A DNA stretch of 33,813 nucleotides. It comes from Phycisphaerae bacterium. Lineage in GTDB: Bacteria > Planctomycetota > Phycisphaerae > Phycisphaerales > Phycisphaeraceae. The notes under the pieces are model-generated. The model searched no databases. It saw only the letters and a program-made list of their open reading frames with translations, and was not told the origin of the DNA. Below are positions 17,161 to 32,018 of the stretch, in pieces. Location of the stretch: contig JAUIGU010000041.1 of NCBI GenBank assembly GCA_030432595.1, forward strand, positions 1-33,813. Reading direction: 5' to 3'. Position 1 is the stretch's first letter. Each line of letters starts with the position of its first letter. Both the position numbers and the translations under genes were made by a program.

Positions 17161-19092
17161 TTACGCGTCGGGGCGGCGGACGGGGGGCACGTTGGGGGAG
17201 GCCAACCAGCGCCGCCAGATGACCAGTTGCAGCAGGGCGAAGAGGCGGTGCGTGTGGTCGTGGGTGCGTTGCTGGTGCTGCTCGAAGAGCGATCGCACGC
17301 GATTGGGGTCGCAGCCGATCTCGCCCAGCTCGGGGCCGGTGAGGCGGTCGTGCAGCGCGTCGCGGAGGCCGGTGCGGAACCAGGTCCCGATGGGCACGGC
17401 GAAGCCGCGCTTGGGTCGGCCGACGATCTCCGGCGGCAGCCACTTGGCCGCGAGTTGGCGCAGCAGGCCCTTGGGCTTGCCCCGCGGCATCAGCAGGTGC
17501 GGCGGGATGTGCCCGGCCAGGTCCGCGACCGACGTGTCCAGCAGCGGGCAGCGCACCTCGATCGCGACGGCCATCGACGCGCGGTCCACCTTCCGCAGCA
17601 GCTCGAACGGCAGGTAGTGGTTCAGGTCCCATCGCATCGCCGCGTGCACGGTGTCGGGCTCGTCCTCCCAGCCCGGCAGCGCGGCGATCGGCGGGTCGAG
17701 CGTTTCGCCGAAGCGGTCGGGCATGAGCGCGGCGATGTCGGCGTCGTCGAAGAGGTGGATCATGGAGTGGTACTGCCGGTCGGCGTCGGGGCCGGCCTGA
17801 GCGGCGTGGATCAGCCGGGCGAGCCGGGCGCGCTTGGTCCGGGGCTGGGACTCGTCGAAGAGGCTCGCGGGCAGTTGCCGGACGACCCCGCCGGCGCGCC
17901 GAAGCAGCCGGATCGCGCGGTAGCGGTCGTACCCGCCGAACATCTCGTCGCCGCCGTCGCCGGACAACGCGACACGCACGTGCCCGCGTGCCGCCTTGCA
18001 GAGCCAGTGCGTGGGCAGCAGCGAGCTGTCCGCGGTCGGCTCGCCCGACACGTTCATCAGCCGCTCGAGGTCGGCGAACGTGTCCCCGATCCGCGTCTCC
18101 AGGACCATGTGGTCCGCGCCGATGTGCTTGGCGACGTGGTTCGCGTGGCGGGATTCGTCGTAGTCCAGGTCCGGCATGGCGACGCTGTACGTCTTCAGCC
18201 GGCCGCCGCCGAGTTGCTTCAACTGGTTCTGCGCCAACGCCGCGATCAGCGACGAGTCGATCCCGCCCGAAAGAAAACACCCCAGCGGCACGTCGGCCTC
18301 GAGCCGGCGGTGGACCGACTCGGTGACCACTTCCTCCATCGCCGCGAACAGCCCCAGCGAGGTGCTCGTCCGCGAAACCGGCGGAGGACGCCAGTACTGC
18401 CGGGTCGTCATGCCGCCGTCGGCGTCGAACTTCAGCCAGTGCGCCGGTGGGACCTCCTCGATCCCGGCCACCATCGACCGGGCGAACGGATACCCCAGCC
18501 GCAGGTAGTTCAGCAGCGCCGCGTCGTCGACTTCGGGCCGAACGCCTTCCGGCAACCCCGCCACCACCGTCGCCACCAGCGAACCGAACACCACCTCACG
18601 CCCGTCGGGGCAGCGCCAGTAGTAGAGCGGCTTCTTGCCCGCGCGGTCCCGGCACAGGAACAGCGACCGGTCGAGCCGGTTCCACACGGCAAACGCGAAC
18701 ATGCCGTGCAGGTGCTTGGGCAGCTCGTCGCCCCACTGGCGGTAGCCGAACAGCAGCGCCTCGGTGTCGGAGTGGTCGGAGTGGAAGGCGTGCCCGCGTT
18801 TGTCGAGTTGTTTCCGGAGCCGACGGTGGTTGTAGATCTCGCCGTTGAAGACCAGGCTCAGTGGGCCGTGCGTTCGGCCGTCGGACGCCGCCGCTTCGTC
18901 CACCTGCATGGGTTGGTGCCCGGAGAGCAGGTCGATGATGGAGAGCCGGGCGTGCGCGAGCCCGCAGCGGTCGTGGGCCTCGATGCCGATGCCGTCCGGC
19001 CCGCGGTGTTGCACCTGCGCGAGCATCCGCCCGAGCCGGTCGCGGTCGACGGGCCGGTCATCGAAGCGCAGGATGCCGGCGATGCCGCACAT
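17161..19092 (-). CDS. asnB: Asparagine synthase (glutamine-hydrolysing), AsnB type (643 aa)
   Basis: Two-domain glutamine amidotransferase. The N-terminal class II glutaminase begins with the invariant MCGIAG, so Cys2 becomes the nucleophile after Met removal; HRGPDG (29-34) and FNGEIYN (82-88) line its site. The synthetase domain has the ATP pyrophosphatase loop FLSGGIDSS (273-281) and a second conserved segment, LSGDGGDEMFGGYDRY. At 643 residues it is longer than E. coli AsnB (554) and nearer Bacillus-type enzymes. The frame is open to 19326, but MCGIAG fixes the start at 19092. Free asparagine synthesis is the default role; amidation of a surface polymer is known for some relatives and cannot be excluded. 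The leader contains an unusual G-rich heptad repeat. Confidence 0.92.
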   Translation of the reverse strand: MCGIAGILRFDDRPVDRDRLGRMLAQVQHRGPDGIGIEAHDRCGLAHARLSIIDLLSGHQPMQVDEAAASDGRTHGPLSLVFNGEIYNHRRLRKQLDKRGHAFHSDHSDTEALLFGYRQWGDELPKHLHGMFAFAVWNRLDRSLFLCRDRAGKKPLYYWRCPDGREVVFGSLVATVVAGLPEGVRPEVDDAALLNYLRLGYPFARSMVAGIEEVPPAHWLKFDADGGMTTRQYWRPPPVSRTSTSLGLFAAMEEVVTESVHRRLEADVPLGCFLSGGIDSSLIAALAQNQLKQLGGGRLKTYSVAMPDLDYDESRHANHVAKHIGADHMVLETRIGDTFADLERLMNVSGEPTADSSLLPTHWLCKAARGHVRVALSGDGGDEMFGGYDRYRAIRLLRRAGGVVRQLPASLFDESQPRTKRARLARLIHAAQAGPDADRQYHSMIHLFDDADIAALMPDRFGETLDPPIAALPGWEDEPDTVHAAMRWDLNHYLPFELLRKVDRASMAVAIEVRCPLLDTSVADLAGHIPPHLLMPRGKPKGLLRQLAAKWLPPEIVGRPKRGFAVPIGTWFRTGLRDALHDRLTGPELGEIGCDPNRVRSLFEQHQQRTHDHTHRLFALLQLVIWRRWLASPNVPPVRRPDA

Positions 19093-19096
19093 TTCT

Positions 19097-19256
19097 GGGG
19101 TCGAGGGGCGGGGGCTTGGGCGAGTCGGGTATGGGGTATTGGGCTTGGGGCTTGGTCTGCATTGAATGCTCAATGCGCCACCCAAGCTACGCATGATGTC
19201 TTGATCGTCAATTCCGACCAAACCCCATACCCCATACCCCAAGCCCCAGACCCGAC
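19097..19256. repeat. Paired inverted arrays of a G-rich heptad (GGGGTAT/GGGGCTT), G-quadruplex-prone
   Basis: Two inverted arms, 19124-19164 (plus) and 19209-19256 (minus), both begin GTCGGGT and end TTGGTC..ATTG. They contain 7-nt units of the form GGGGTAT or GGGGCTT, and the arms differ in length by exactly one unit (41 and 48 nt). The plus strand has eight runs of three or more G between 19097 and 19150; the minus strand has several in the other arm. Between them is a lower-GC loop with a perfect 7-bp hairpin (19159-19165 with 19170-19176, loop ATGC). The element fills the gap between aspS and asnB. Confidence 0.8.
19184..19211 (-). promoter_or_regulatory. Candidate asnB promoter in the loop of the heptad element
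   Basis: On the minus strand TTGACG (19211-19206) and TAGCTT (19189-19184) are 16 bp apart. The -35 matches five of six consensus bases; the -10 is poor. It would start asnB transcription about 85 nt upstream of its ATG and leave the plus-strand-G array in the leader as a C-rich RNA. Low confidence. Confidence 0.3.
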
Positions 19257-19261
19257 GCGGG

Positions 19262-21064
19262 TCACGCCTTGGGCGCGGCCGGCTTCTGCACCGTCCGCAG
19301 GTGGAGCTCCGTGAGCTGTGCATCATCCACGGGCGAGGGCGCGGCGGTCATGAGGTCCGCGCCGTTCTGCGTCTTGGGGAAGGCGATGACGTCGCGGATG
19401 TTGGTCGTGCCGACCAGGTGCATGACCAGGCGGTCCAAGCCGAACGCCAGGCCGCCGTGCGGCGGGGCGCCGAAGTTGAGCGCATCGAGCAGGAAGCCGA
19501 ACTTTTCGCGGGCCGCGGCCTCGTCGATGCCCAGCAGCGCGAAGACCTGCTGCTGCACGTCGGGTCGGTGGATACGGATCGAACCGCCGCCCAACTCGCT
19601 GCCGTTGAGCACGAGGTCGTAGGCCTTGGATTTGATGCCGGCGATCGCGTCGTGGTCGCCGGACTTGAGCGCGTCGAGCGCATCGTCGTTGGGCGCGGTG
19701 AACGGGTGGTGCAGGGAGTCCCAGCGTTTCTGGTCGTCGTTCCATTCCACGGCAGGAAAGTCCACGACCCACAGCCACTCCCACTGGCCGGGCTGGATCA
19801 TCTTGAGGTCGTGGGCAAGCTTGACGCGCAGCTCGCCGAGTACGCGCGCCACCACCGCGGGCCGGGCGTCGACGCCGAAGCAGATCAGGTCGCCGTCCTG
19901 GGCTTCGAGGCGGGACACGAGGTCGGACGAGATGTCACTGACGAACTTGGCGATGCCGGTCGCGACTTGGCCGTTCTCGACTTTGCAGATCGGCAGGCCG
20001 CCGGCGCCGAACTGCTTGACCCACTCGGCCAGCGCGTCGGTTTCCTTGCGCGTCATGGAGGCGCCGCCGGGCACGCGGATGGCCTTGACCACGCCGCCCG
20101 CGTCGAGCGCGCCCTTAAACACCTTGAAGTCGGTCTTGCCGGCCAGGTCCGACACGTCCACGAGTTCCATGCCGAAGCGCAGGTCGGGCCGGTCGCTGCC
20201 GAAGCGTTCCATGGCTTCGTCGTAACTCATGCGCTTCACGGGCGGCACGTCCACGCCCAGCACATCTTTCCAGACCGCGCGGACCATGCCTTCCGAGATC
20301 GCCATCACGTCGTCCTGCTCGACGAAGCTCATCTCCAGGTCGATCTGCGTGAACTCCGCCTGGCGGTCGGCCCGCGGGTCTTCGTCCCGGAAGCAGCGGG
20401 CGATCTGGATGTAGCGCTCGATCCCGCCGACCATCAAGACCTGCTTGAAGAGCTGCGGGCTCTGCGGGAGCGCGTAGAACTCGCCGGCCTGCAGACGCGA
20501 GGGCACGAGGAAGTCCCGCGCGCCTTCCGGCGTCGAACGACACAGGAACGGCGTCTCGACCTCGTAGAACCCGTGCTCGTCGGCGTAGTCGCGGATGACC
20601 TTGGTGACGCGGTGGCGGGTGCGGATGATCTCCTGCATCCGCGGGCGGCGCATGTCCAGGTAGCGGTAGCGCAGTCGGGTTTCCTCGCCGACCTTGCCGG
20701 CGTCCTCGGGCGTGAACGGCGGGGTCTCGGCCTTGTTGAGGATGGTGCAGTCGGTGGCGTCGATCTCGACCTTGCCGGTGGCGAGCTTGGGGTTCTCGCC
20801 GCCTTCGCGGATGATGCACTTGCCGGTGACGCGGATGACGTCTTCGTGCCGGAGTTTTTGCGCGAGTTCGTGCGCGGCCCCGGCCTCGGGGTGGAAGACG
20901 ATTTGGGTGATGCCTTCGCGGTCGCGGAGGTCGATGAAGCGGACGCCGCCGTGGTCCCGGTAGTTGTTGACCCAGCCGGCGAGCGTGACGGTCTGGCCGA
21001 CGTCGCCTTCGCGGAGTTGGGCGCAGTGGTGGGTGCGGGAGGTGGTGGCGGCGGTGGCGGTCAT
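19262..21064 (-). CDS. aspS: Aspartyl-tRNA synthetase, bacterial type (600 aa)
   Basis: Class IIb aminoacyl-tRNA synthetase. Residues 1-110 form the OB-fold anticodon domain (LAGWVNNYRDHGGVRFIDLRDR at 28-49). Motif 2 is near 222-246 (CFRDEDPRADRQAEFTQIDLEMSF). A GAD-type insertion occupies roughly 290-430, as usual in bacteria. Motif 3 is GGLAFGLDRLVMHLVG near the C-terminus. The 600 residues match the bacterial family (about 580-600). The frame runs open to 21724 over ribE, so the family start MTATAATT at 21064 is used. His38 in RDHGG is the residue seen in non-discriminating AspRS (Leu in E. coli), suggesting it may also charge tRNA-Asn; that is inference. A TATCAT -10-like hexamer lies at 21135-21130. 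Confidence 0.94.
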   Translation of the reverse strand: MTATAATTSRTHHCAQLREGDVGQTVTLAGWVNNYRDHGGVRFIDLRDREGITQIVFHPEAGAAHELAQKLRHEDVIRVTGKCIIREGGENPKLATGKVEIDATDCTILNKAETPPFTPEDAGKVGEETRLRYRYLDMRRPRMQEIIRTRHRVTKVIRDYADEHGFYEVETPFLCRSTPEGARDFLVPSRLQAGEFYALPQSPQLFKQVLMVGGIERYIQIARCFRDEDPRADRQAEFTQIDLEMSFVEQDDVMAISEGMVRAVWKDVLGVDVPPVKRMSYDEAMERFGSDRPDLRFGMELVDVSDLAGKTDFKVFKGALDAGGVVKAIRVPGGASMTRKETDALAEWVKQFGAGGLPICKVENGQVATGIAKFVSDISSDLVSRLEAQDGDLICFGVDARPAVVARVLGELRVKLAHDLKMIQPGQWEWLWVVDFPAVEWNDDQKRWDSLHHPFTAPNDDALDALKSGDHDAIAGIKSKAYDLVLNGSELGGGSIRIHRPDVQQQVFALLGIDEAAAREKFGFLLDALNFGAPPHGGLAFGLDRLVMHLVGTTNIRDVIAFPKTQNGADLMTAAPSPVDDAQLTELHLRTVQKPAAPKA

Positions 21065-29495: not shown

Positions 29496-31346
29496 ATGAG
29501 CGCTGAAACCAGCAGCACGGCCGGGCGTCGCATGTACGGCCGGACACGCGACGCCTACCGGTATTCACTGTTCGGGGTGCTGCTGGTGATCCTCGGGGTG
29601 TTCCTGATCTGGCCGATCGCGCTCACGGTGTTCCAGGGCTTCGTGGACGACGAGGGCGGGCTGACCCTGCGCTACTTCTTTGGCGACGGCGTGGGCGTGC
29701 TGCGGGACCCGCTGTACCGGGCGGGGCTGATCAACGCGTTCCTGATCGCGGTGTGTACGACGACGCTTTGCCTGGTCGTGACGCTGCCGATGTCGGTGAT
29801 TGCGGCGCGCTACTCGTTCCGGGGCAAGGCGGCGATCACGTCGCTGGTGCTGGTGCCGCTGATCCTGCCGCCGTTCGTGGGGGCGATCGGGCTGCAGGCG
29901 CTGCTCGGGCGGTTCGGGGCGATCAACACGGTGCTGATGAACCTGGGGCTGGTCGATGCGGACGGTCCGGGCATCGACTTCCTGGGCGGGGCGGTCGGCG
30001 GGCGGTTCTGGGCGGTGGTCGTGATGGAGGCGCTGCACCTGTACCCGATCCTGTACCTGAACATCACCGCGGCGCTGGCGAACCTGGACCCGTCGCTGGA
30101 CGAGGCGGCGCAGAACCTGGGGGCCAGTCGGTTGCGGCGATTCTGGAAGTGCACGTTCCCGCTGATCTTGCCGGGGGTGTTCGCCGGGGCAACGATCGTG
30201 TTCATCTGGTCGTTCACCGAGCTGGGCACGCCGCTGATGTTCGAGTACAAGACAGTCACGCCGGTGCAGGTGTTCTACGGTTTGCAGGAGATCGAGAGCA
30301 ACCCCCGGCCGTACGCGCTGGTGGTGGTCATGCTGATCGCTGCGGTCGGGCTGTACCTACTGGGCAAGTTCGCGTTCGGCGGCCGGGCGTACGCGATGCA
30401 GAGCAAGGCGACGGCGGCCGTTTCCGAGCAACGCCTGACGGGGTGGAAGGGCTTTGCAGCGCTGGCGTTTTTTGTCGGGGTCACGCTGCTGGCGGTGCTG
30501 CCGCACCTGGGAGTCGTGTTTTCGTCGGTGGCCGTGGACGGGTCTTGGTACCGCTCGATCCTGCCGGGGGAGTTCACGCTTTCGCACTACCAGGGCGCGC
30601 TGACCCACGAGCTCGCGATGACCTCGGTGGCGAACTCGCTGCTGTACGCGGGCGCGGCGATGGTGCTGTGCGTGATCCTGGGGCTGGCGATCGCGTACCT
30701 GACGGTGCGCTGCAAGGTGAAGGGCGGTTGGCTGCTGGACGCGCTGGGGATGTTGCCGCTGGCGGTGCCGGGCTTGGTCATGGCGTTCGGCTACGTCGCG
30801 ATGTCGCTGCAGTGGCCGTTCCCGCAGTTGGCGGGTTGGCTGCAGGACGGCGTCGCCGACGGCAACCCCGGCAGCGTGTGGTATTCGCTGGGCTCGCTGT
30901 TCGCGCTGCGCGGCGGGGCGCCGAACCCGCTGGTGTTCCTCATCGTCGCGTACACGATCCGCCGGCTGCCGTACATTCTGCGCTCGGCGTCGGCGGGCCT
31001 GGAGCAGACCTCGGGCGACCTCGAAGAGGCCGCACTGAACCTGGGCGCCTCGCCCATGACCGCGATCCGCCGCGTGGTTGTGCCGTTGATTTTGGCGAAC
31101 CTGATCGCCGGCGGGATCCTCGTGTTCAGCTTCGCGATGCTCGAGGTGTCCGATTCGCTGATCCTGGCCGAGAAGGAACCGCACTACCCGATCACCAAGG
31201 CGATCTGGACGCTGTTTAACCGCCTGGGCGACGGGCCGTACATCGCCAGCGCGATGGGCGTGTGGGGGATGGCACTCCTGACGGTGACGCTGGTGGGGGC
31301 CTCCGTGCTGATGGGCAAGAAGCTCGGGGCGATCTTCCGGGTGTGA
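29496..31346 (+). CDS. Iron(III)-type ABC transporter permease, two fused membrane domains (616 aa)
   Basis: Inner-membrane permease with two BPD-type transmembrane domains in one chain, as in FbpB/AfuB/SfuB iron transporters. Each half ends in an EAA loop that docks the ATPase: EAAQNLGASRLRRFWKCTFPLILPG (near 203-227) and EAALNLGASPMTAIRRVVVPLIL in the second half. About twelve hydrophobic helices are visible, the first at 23-46. The ATG at 29496 is divergent from the GGDEF gene by 227 bp. The ATP-binding subunit and periplasmic binding protein are not in the window: the next gene is convergent and unrelated, so this permease stands alone here. Iron as substrate is a family-based guess; other oxyanion or polyamine systems share the fold. 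Confidence 0.9.
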   Translation: MSAETSSTAGRRMYGRTRDAYRYSLFGVLLVILGVFLIWPIALTVFQGFVDDEGGLTLRYFFGDGVGVLRDPLYRAGLINAFLIAVCTTTLCLVVTLPMSVIAARYSFRGKAAITSLVLVPLILPPFVGAIGLQALLGRFGAINTVLMNLGLVDADGPGIDFLGGAVGGRFWAVVVMEALHLYPILYLNITAALANLDPSLDEAAQNLGASRLRRFWKCTFPLILPGVFAGATIVFIWSFTELGTPLMFEYKTVTPVQVFYGLQEIESNPRPYALVVVMLIAAVGLYLLGKFAFGGRAYAMQSKATAAVSEQRLTGWKGFAALAFFVGVTLLAVLPHLGVVFSSVAVDGSWYRSILPGEFTLSHYQGALTHELAMTSVANSLLYAGAAMVLCVILGLAIAYLTVRCKVKGGWLLDALGMLPLAVPGLVMAFGYVAMSLQWPFPQLAGWLQDGVADGNPGSVWYSLGSLFALRGGAPNPLVFLIVAYTIRRLPYILRSASAGLEQTSGDLEEAALNLGASPMTAIRRVVVPLILANLIAGGILVFSFAMLEVSDSLILAEKEPHYPITKAIWTLFNRLGDGPYIASAMGVWGMALLTVTLVGASVLMGKKLGAIFRV

Positions 31347-31457: not shown

Positions 31458-32018
31458 TCACCACACCGACCACGGCGGTTGCCAGCCCAGCAGGTGCTCG
31501 GCGCCCGCGAGCGCGGCGCCCACGGCGATGCCGACCGCGAACGGAACCGTCACGGTCTCGGGGTCGCGTGCGTCCGGCAGGTCGGGTTTGACCCGCGCCG
31601 AGGCCATCACCGCCGCACCGATCACCCGCGCCAGCGTCTGCTTGACGATCCCCCGCCGAAACATCACGAAAAACGCCAGCAGCACCGCGACCAGCAGCGC
31701 ATAAACCGCCGCGTCCAACACCGCCGTCCAAGACGCGAGCCACGCCCCGACCGCGCCCATGAGTTTCATGTCCCCGCCGCCCAGCCCGCCCATCAGCACC
31801 AGCGCCAAGGCGGGCACCAGGCCCGCGAGCAGGCCAACGGCACTGTCGCCCAACGGTTGCCAGCTTTGTAACGCCAACCACCCGGCCGCGGCCCAGTAGA
31901 CCAAGCCGCCAACCATCGCCGGGTAAGTCAGCGCGTTGGGCACCCGCCCCTGTCGGACATCAAACCACGCGGCGATCAACCCCAACAGGATCAGCGCGAC
32001 CATCGGCGCGATCGTCAT
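31458..32018 (-). CDS. cpaA: Prepilin peptidase, A24 family (CpaA/TadV-like, 186 aa)
   Basis: Polytopic membrane aspartyl protease that cleaves the leader of Flp/Tad pilins. Both catalytic aspartates are present: Asp20 in AWFDVRQGRVPN and Asp83 in GGGDMKLMGAVGAW (GxGD motif). The short length and lack of the N-terminal cysteine-rich methyltransferase domain fit CpaA/TadV rather than PilD. There are about six hydrophobic segments. Its likely substrates are the two small pilin-like proteins encoded just upstream on the same strand. It follows the 95-aa gene by 36 nt, so co-transcription is likely. Confidence 0.9.
   Translation of the reverse strand: MTIAPMVALILLGLIAAWFDVRQGRVPNALTYPAMVGGLVYWAAAGWLALQSWQPLGDSAVGLLAGLVPALALVLMGGLGGGDMKLMGAVGAWLASWTAVLDAAVYALLVAVLLAFFVMFRRGIVKQTLARVIGAAVMASARVKPDLPDARDPETVTVPFAVGIAVGAALAGAEHLLGWQPPWSVW

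Follow-up and report, generated by a model that had tools for sequence, protein, structure and literature searches.

The element between aspS and asnB

The DNA analysed here is a contig of 33,813 nucleotides from a Phycisphaerae bacterium (GenBank assembly GCA_030432595.1, contig JAUIGU010000041.1), referred to as the window. In this window, the genes aspS and asnB are separated by a gap of 169 bp that contains two facing arrays of heptads around a spacer (Table 1). The + strand sequence GTCGGGTATGGGGTATTGGGCTTGGGGCTTGGTC (34 nt) faces the - strand sequence GTCGGGTCTGGGGCTTGGGGTATGGGGTATGGGGTTTGGTC (41 nt), both counted with their shared ends, and the right arm is longer by one unit. This layout confirms the initial annotation of the window, which had described two facing arrays with an outer GTCGGGT and an inner TTGGTC..ATTG common to both arms and a length difference of 7 nt; the hairpin that it placed in the spacer is present, and the G-run clusters that it considered able to form quadruplexes on both strands appear in the two arms. 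The core of the right arm (19237-19253) is an exact match to the arm family described below. The start codon of asnB is the complement of 19090-19092 and the stop codon of aspS is the complement of 19262-19264. The asnB product also matches the XrtA/PEP-CTERM amidotransferase family with 443.9 bits, under the cut-off of 816.9. The G-rich stretch outside the left arm is possibly a decayed or nested arm, as judged by eye.

Table 1. Features of the aspS-asnB region, with positions in the window.
Feature	Position	Strand	Description
asnB	17161..19092	-	ORF, asparagine synthase (glutamine-hydrolysing) type; TIGR01536, 408.7 bits (cut-off 267.1); downstream of the element
G-rich stretch outside the left arm	19096..19119	+	TGGGGTCGAGGGGCGGGGGCTTGG; direct repeat, 75% identity to 19132-19155
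Left arm	19127..19155	+	Array GGGTATGGGGTATTGGGCTTGGGGCTTGG; 4 runs of at least three G; 19124-19157 with the shared ends (GTC.., ..TC)
Private spacer	19156..19217	no strand	62 nt; 7-bp hairpin GCATTGA/TCAATGC at 19159-19176
Right arm	19218..19253	-	Array GGGTCTGGGGCTTGGGGTATGGGGTATGGGGTTTGG; 5 runs of at least three G; 19216-19256 with the shared ends
aspS	19262..21049	-	Aspartate--tRNA ligase; PRK00476, 830 bits (cut-off 443); upstream of the element; 21049 is the first residue of the translated stretch, the true start not being fixed

The element folded better than 200 of 200 shuffled sequences, both as DNA (z -3.97) and as RNA (z -5.26). A TTGACG promoter had been proposed in the spacer; the scan of positions 19000-19400 found no promoter-like site, using the sigma-70 consensus only. 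The Rfam search returned four matches, all to microRNA families and with scores well under the gathering cut-offs, and the 144-nt element showed no match at E 1e-5 in plasmid and phage collections. Furthermore, the spacer of this site has no second match in its own genome among the 40 of 68 candidates that were scored.

A family of convergent arms with private spacers

BLAST of the genome (4,386,089 bases in 73 contigs) with the aspS-asnB gap retrieved 82 pieces, many of them short. The arm core GGGTCTGGGGCTTGGGG showed 76 genome matches with at most one mismatch (35 and 41 on the two strands), compared with 8 (1 and 7) for the reversed control. When up to three mismatches were allowed, the core was found at 251 places and the reversed control at 214, nearly as often, and therefore only close core matches count. 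All 76 matches with at most one mismatch were listed, those with two or three mismatches in part, and the arms with two mismatches include chance matches. Reading the sequence around the places given by the pattern search identified at least 96 arms, grouped in 39 facing pairs and 18 unpaired arms. Neighbouring arms were convergent in all 39 pairs (39/39), with no divergent and no tandem arrangement. The unpaired arms include at least four probable chance matches (C19:64198, C19:65952, C27:13736 and C30:65262) and two arms at contig ends (C14:4 and C22:97476); the array opposite several others, such as C24:14016 and C31:72231, has diverged too far to satisfy the pairing rule.

Most arms are 22-44 nt long and are built of G-rich heptads, in which GGGG is mostly followed by TCT, CTT or TTT. 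The units follow a preferred order from the outer to the inner end (TCT; TCT or CTT; CTT; TTT or variants), the inner end being the most variable, and 48 arm cores are identical. The tetranucleotide GCGC precedes about half of the arms and represents a preferred outer start. At least four runs of three or more G are found in 87 of the 96 arms, a count in which three runs are already contained in the core used to find them. The two arms of one site resemble each other no more than arms taken across sites do (a match of the same quality or better in 3759 of 5000 permutations), which speaks against copying from one arm of a site to the other and suggests that the arms would be draws from a common source. 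The outer motif AGGGTNNYCGAGCGC was considered as a separate target repeat and rejected, with two forward and no reverse matches in the genome (control, 0 and 1). A palindrome distinct from the heptad family, GAAGCCCACGCCGT(C/G)ACGGCGTGGGCTTCG, occurs twice at G000:C20:60130-60415, where G000 is the present genome, and a similar one was found in the congener G001; it looks like a classical REP.

The spacers of the 39 pairs range between 16 and 155 nt, with a median of 62 nt and a pooled GC content of 57%, compared with 68% in the flanks. Their mutual similarity is no greater than that of mononucleotide shuffles, and descent from a common ancestor was rejected. The possibility that the spacer is a decayed palindrome was also rejected, its halves not being complementary (62 of 200 shuffles scored equally well or better). 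Direct repeats indicative of a target site duplication were not in excess in the 20-nt flanks of the 39 pairs (112 of 300 permutations equalled or exceeded the observed value; mean common substring 3.95, compared with 3.90 in shuffled flanks), a test in which the exact ends of the elements are not known. No excess of element lengths that are multiples of three was found among the 39 pairs (13, 13 and 13 in the three classes).

The motif AGRCA is present at the inner end of the arms in 9 of 78 ends of this genome, compared with 35 of 2920 mid-spacer 9-mers; in the relative NAT22, 12 of 20 inner ends carry AAGRCA, compared with 16 of 528 mid-spacer 18-mers. An inner motif shared across unit families hints that one mechanism might lie behind the different units. 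Among enzymes, only Y1 transposases were sought: three matches were found in the genome, two of them over the cut-off, and none lies within 10 kb of any listed arm, the arms with two or three mismatches being only partly listed. In G001, a Y1 match below the cut-off lies near palindromes (GCGCTAAACCGCAAGCGACGGCG) at about C108:3461-3730, forming a separate REP-like system.

Open frames of conserved proteins recognised by NCBIfam contain at least ten copies, a count that omits three unnamed intragenic candidates (one in C27 and two proteins of C71). The host proteins are GcvP, NAD+ synthase, MutS, LysS, HisF, a RarA-type ATPase, LipB, DnaE, an AguB-like amidase and a sugar-nucleotide epimerase or dehydratase, and seven of the ten pass their curated cut-off despite the insert. 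Only the arm-coded parts of the inserted peptides recur, by reading, while the spacers are unrelated. In dnaE (G000 C20:74430), an AAGTCCG heptad pair lies beside a single GGGGCTT arm and the frame is open; these side-by-side arrays are perhaps an intermediate in the replacement of one family by another. The GGGGTCT insert of HisF, whose right arm is of another unit, is confined to this genome among the 21 compared. G001 has a HisF version with a loop 39 nt shorter, and in G007 the corresponding loop carries, in frame, a different pair of facing heptad arrays (GGATGGC / CCATCAT). The loop was read as DNA in five relatives; its length varies, and the stretch in G009 may be a decayed array.

Orthologous sites in related genomes

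The nearest named records to this genome are assemblies of Phycisphaera sp. and Phycisphaeraceae. One congener (G001), whose AspS is 87% identical, was searched, and it contains no arm core at up to one mismatch. Its aspS-asnB gap is only 36 bp. The initial annotation had looked both to second copies in the genome and to conservation upstream of asnB in close relatives: the second copies were found, whereas the element is missing upstream of asnB in this nearest relative. Family arrays are also absent from G001 at three further sites; G-rich stretches that are perhaps decayed arrays lie at two of them, where insertion after the split of the two genomes is thus not proven. About 58 kb of G001 contained no array pair.

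Where asnB adjoins aspS in other relatives, the gap often keeps the facing layout with other units, namely GGGGTCT, GGGATTT-like, GGCACGAA, CGAATGAC, AGGAATNC, GGGAGTA, GGGATTA, GCTGATA and ACACGGAG. An inverted-repeat score with p 0.01 against dinucleotide shuffles was reached by 8 of 11 aspS-asnB gaps, compared with 3 of 27 other gaps of the same loci; several of the eight come from close relatives, and the independent number is nearer five. The scored gaps were of at least 60 bp, four more relatives with shorter gaps being left out, and target gaps were compared with 200 shuffles and control gaps with 100, with genes delimited by a crude longest-ORF rule. The region upstream of ychF was rejected as a second shared site: 22 relatives were read, excluding G011 and six that gave no start, and they showed a single clear pair, in G045 and built of another unit, and perhaps one lone arm in G009, which indicates that sharing varies from site to site. 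A sample of 260 kb from seven relatives contained about five array pairs recognised by eye, so the arrays are too sparse for chance sharing to be likely.

Two sister genomes, syqfu (G061, complete) and NAT22 (G062), share 94% identity in aspS and 89.6% identity across 20 kb. Both arms of their aspS-asnB elements differ (GGGAGTA in syqfu and GGGATTA in NAT22) and the spacers do not align. A 36-kb comparison showed, by eye, six sites where one genome carries a pair and its counterpart carries another array or a remnant of one; three of the six have intact pairs in both. The syqfu pair 382, at the edge, was left out of this comparison, remnants were judged by eye, and matches at 18618 and 22823 of NAT22 and at 35546 of syqfu, which show no array periodicity, were set aside by eye. 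Orthologous sites of the two genomes keep the pair while the unit switches from GGGATTA to GGGACTA or GGGAGTA. In alignment columns 35844-36025, every heptad of the two arms has ATT in NAT22 where syqfu has ACT; the flanks there are nearly identical and the spacers differ. The families differ outright at about 31654-31794 (ACACAGAG vs CCAAGACG), and at about 27020 a CGCGAAGG pair lies opposite a decayed CCAAGACG-like stretch. At 30696-30881, the arms (11/66 differences) and the spacer (15/118) have drifted together, with 70/595 differences in the flanks, and this is ordinary divergence. Unbroken GGGATTA or GGGAGTA runs far longer than the paired arms were observed at G061:C1:421337-421449 and 1247282-1247359 and at G062:C113:24353-24402; source arrays are a possible interpretation of these runs. 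In NAT22, an approximately 88-nt repeat (CGTCATTCCCGCG..) with dozens of matches in syqfu lies inside a heptad-pair spacer (L340:13916-14004), as a case of nested repeats.

Origin of the element and comparison with known repeats

The initial annotation had considered a small non-autonomous mobile element, and this proposal holds in substance. The many dispersed copies, the intragenic copies, the absence of the arm core from G001 and the short gap of that genome argue for it; the unrelated spacers, the unseen target duplication and the distance of Y1 genes from the listed arms make it an unconventional one. We propose, with a probability of about 0.6, that the element at asnB belongs to a lineage-specific family of small non-autonomous insertions whose arms are copied separately from their spacers. 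That the family is dispersed and inserted, and not specific to asnB, is very probable, while the chances of arm-wise copying, rather than ordinary transposition of the whole element, appear evenly balanced. These assessments are based on one genome of the species and on relatives that are mostly metagenome assemblies, with several judgements made by eye. A full copy consists of two facing arms and a private spacer of 16-155 nt. The arms would be the propagating part, drawn from a genome-wide source and placed one on each side of the insertion point, and the spacer would be made or kept locally, so that the body would not travel with the arms. Sites that hold an element may be prone to rewriting with whichever arm sequence is current. 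Against this proposal, no enzyme, template or intermediate was found, and the GCGC outer start and the inner motif also fit transposon ends. The G-rich stretches of G001, the joint drift of arms and spacer at one site of the sister genomes and the scant sharing at ychF count against it as well.

The main rival is an element like a REPIN or a MITE, moved whole through its paired arms by a transposase encoded elsewhere, with spacers that then diverge fast. The paired inverted arms, their lineage-specific sequence, their dispersal, the unpaired arms as possible remnants, the Y1 matches of the genome and the inner-end motif common to several unit families are all compatible with it; we nevertheless hold it to be rather unlikely, as the 39 spacers are unrelated while 48 arm cores are identical, the flanks carry no direct duplication, no Y1 match lies close to the listed arms and the Y1 match of G001 adjoins its own, different palindromes. 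Slippage of simple repeats at independent places, with no unit inserted, agrees with unit numbers that differ between arms and with the long overlapping GGGATTA or GGGAGTA runs of relatives; it is highly improbable, since it does not account for the convergence of all 39 pairs, for a unit order common to unrelated sites or for inserts that leave the frame open and bring a new spacer. Similarly slight is the probability of the structure switch controlling asnB that had been suggested initially, a quadruplex or hairpin acting in cis in the asnB leader. The stable fold, the G runs of most arms and the position just before asnB speak for such a switch, but dozens of unrelated genes carry similar copies, also within coding sequence, the element is absent in the congener, the arms of a site are not mutually matched, neither promoter nor terminator patterns were found in 19000-19400 (0 and 0), and all Rfam families were below cut-off. 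Judging from the sequence, the element most likely has no dedicated regulatory job at asnB, and a transcribed hairpin or quadruplex there may have side effects.

A bolder reading, which we regard as doubtful, is that such sites are persistent docking sites repeatedly rewritten in place, where the site and the layout are inherited and the unit and the spacer are replaced by the template of the lineage. The activity would lay a short template-coded arm on both sides of a break or nick, with filler between them, in a telomere-like geometry with both G-rich 3' ends pointing inwards. On this reading, a single kind of mechanism would have produced units such as GGGGTCT, GGGATTA, GGGACTA, ACACAGAG, CCAAGACG and GGATGGC, and the inner motif AGRCA would mark some of them. 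Heptad arrays of bacteria have so far been regarded either as simple repeats or as quadruplex signals; if the site is inherited while the repeat is swapped, and if arrays enter genes in frame, they would be insertion elements whose spreading activity can be sought, for which syqfu, with its complete genome, and NAT22 offer ready orthologous sites. Searches with the array strings as literature text found no related paper, and unit switching at shared sites was absent from the titles and abstracts searched, subscription papers being outside their scope.

Among known systems, a MITE of an insertion sequence differs from the family by its target site duplication and shared body, neither of which was detected here. 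REPINs (paired REP with RAYT, PMC3116915) also have two inverted conserved arms and a less conserved spacer, and are lineage-specific and dispersed; in contrast, the family described here has heptad-array arms, wholly unrelated spacers of 16-155 nt, no RAYT near the listed arms and no compensatory pairing, the arms of a site being no better matched than permuted ones. The present family resembles the Rickettsia palindromic element (PMC10969869) in its in-frame inserts in unrelated conserved genes, of which ten are named here; that element is reported to be about 150 bp long and to encode a conserved peptide, whereas only the arm-coded parts recur in the present family. The TAACTGA repeats of Beggiatoaceae (PMC4679880) are likewise heptads dispersed between genes, with a patchy distribution across lineages, although they are reported as direct repeats near start codons and not as convergent pairs.

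The closest described kind is the convergent GGGAATC arrays of Xanthomonas, among the quadruplex-forming heptads reported in Xanthomonas and Nostoc (Rehm et al. 2015, PMC4692102). According to that paper, these heptads are dispersed in the genome, with 70 and 75 convergent pairs in Xanthomonas and a preference for at least four units, 83% of the Xcc repeats lie in the same context in Xac, and no link to known mobile elements is reported. Both types share dispersed short G-rich heptad arrays whose neighbours converge on opposite strands. The units here are GGGG followed by TCT, CTT or TTT, and not GGGNATC, and the family is therefore filed as a variant with another unit rather than as a member of the Xanthomonas sequence family. 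The present family appears to differ in its phylum and unit (GGGGTCT/CTT vs GGGAATC), in convergent pairs being the rule, and in its private spacers, its in-frame entry into named conserved genes and the switching of its units at orthologous sites.
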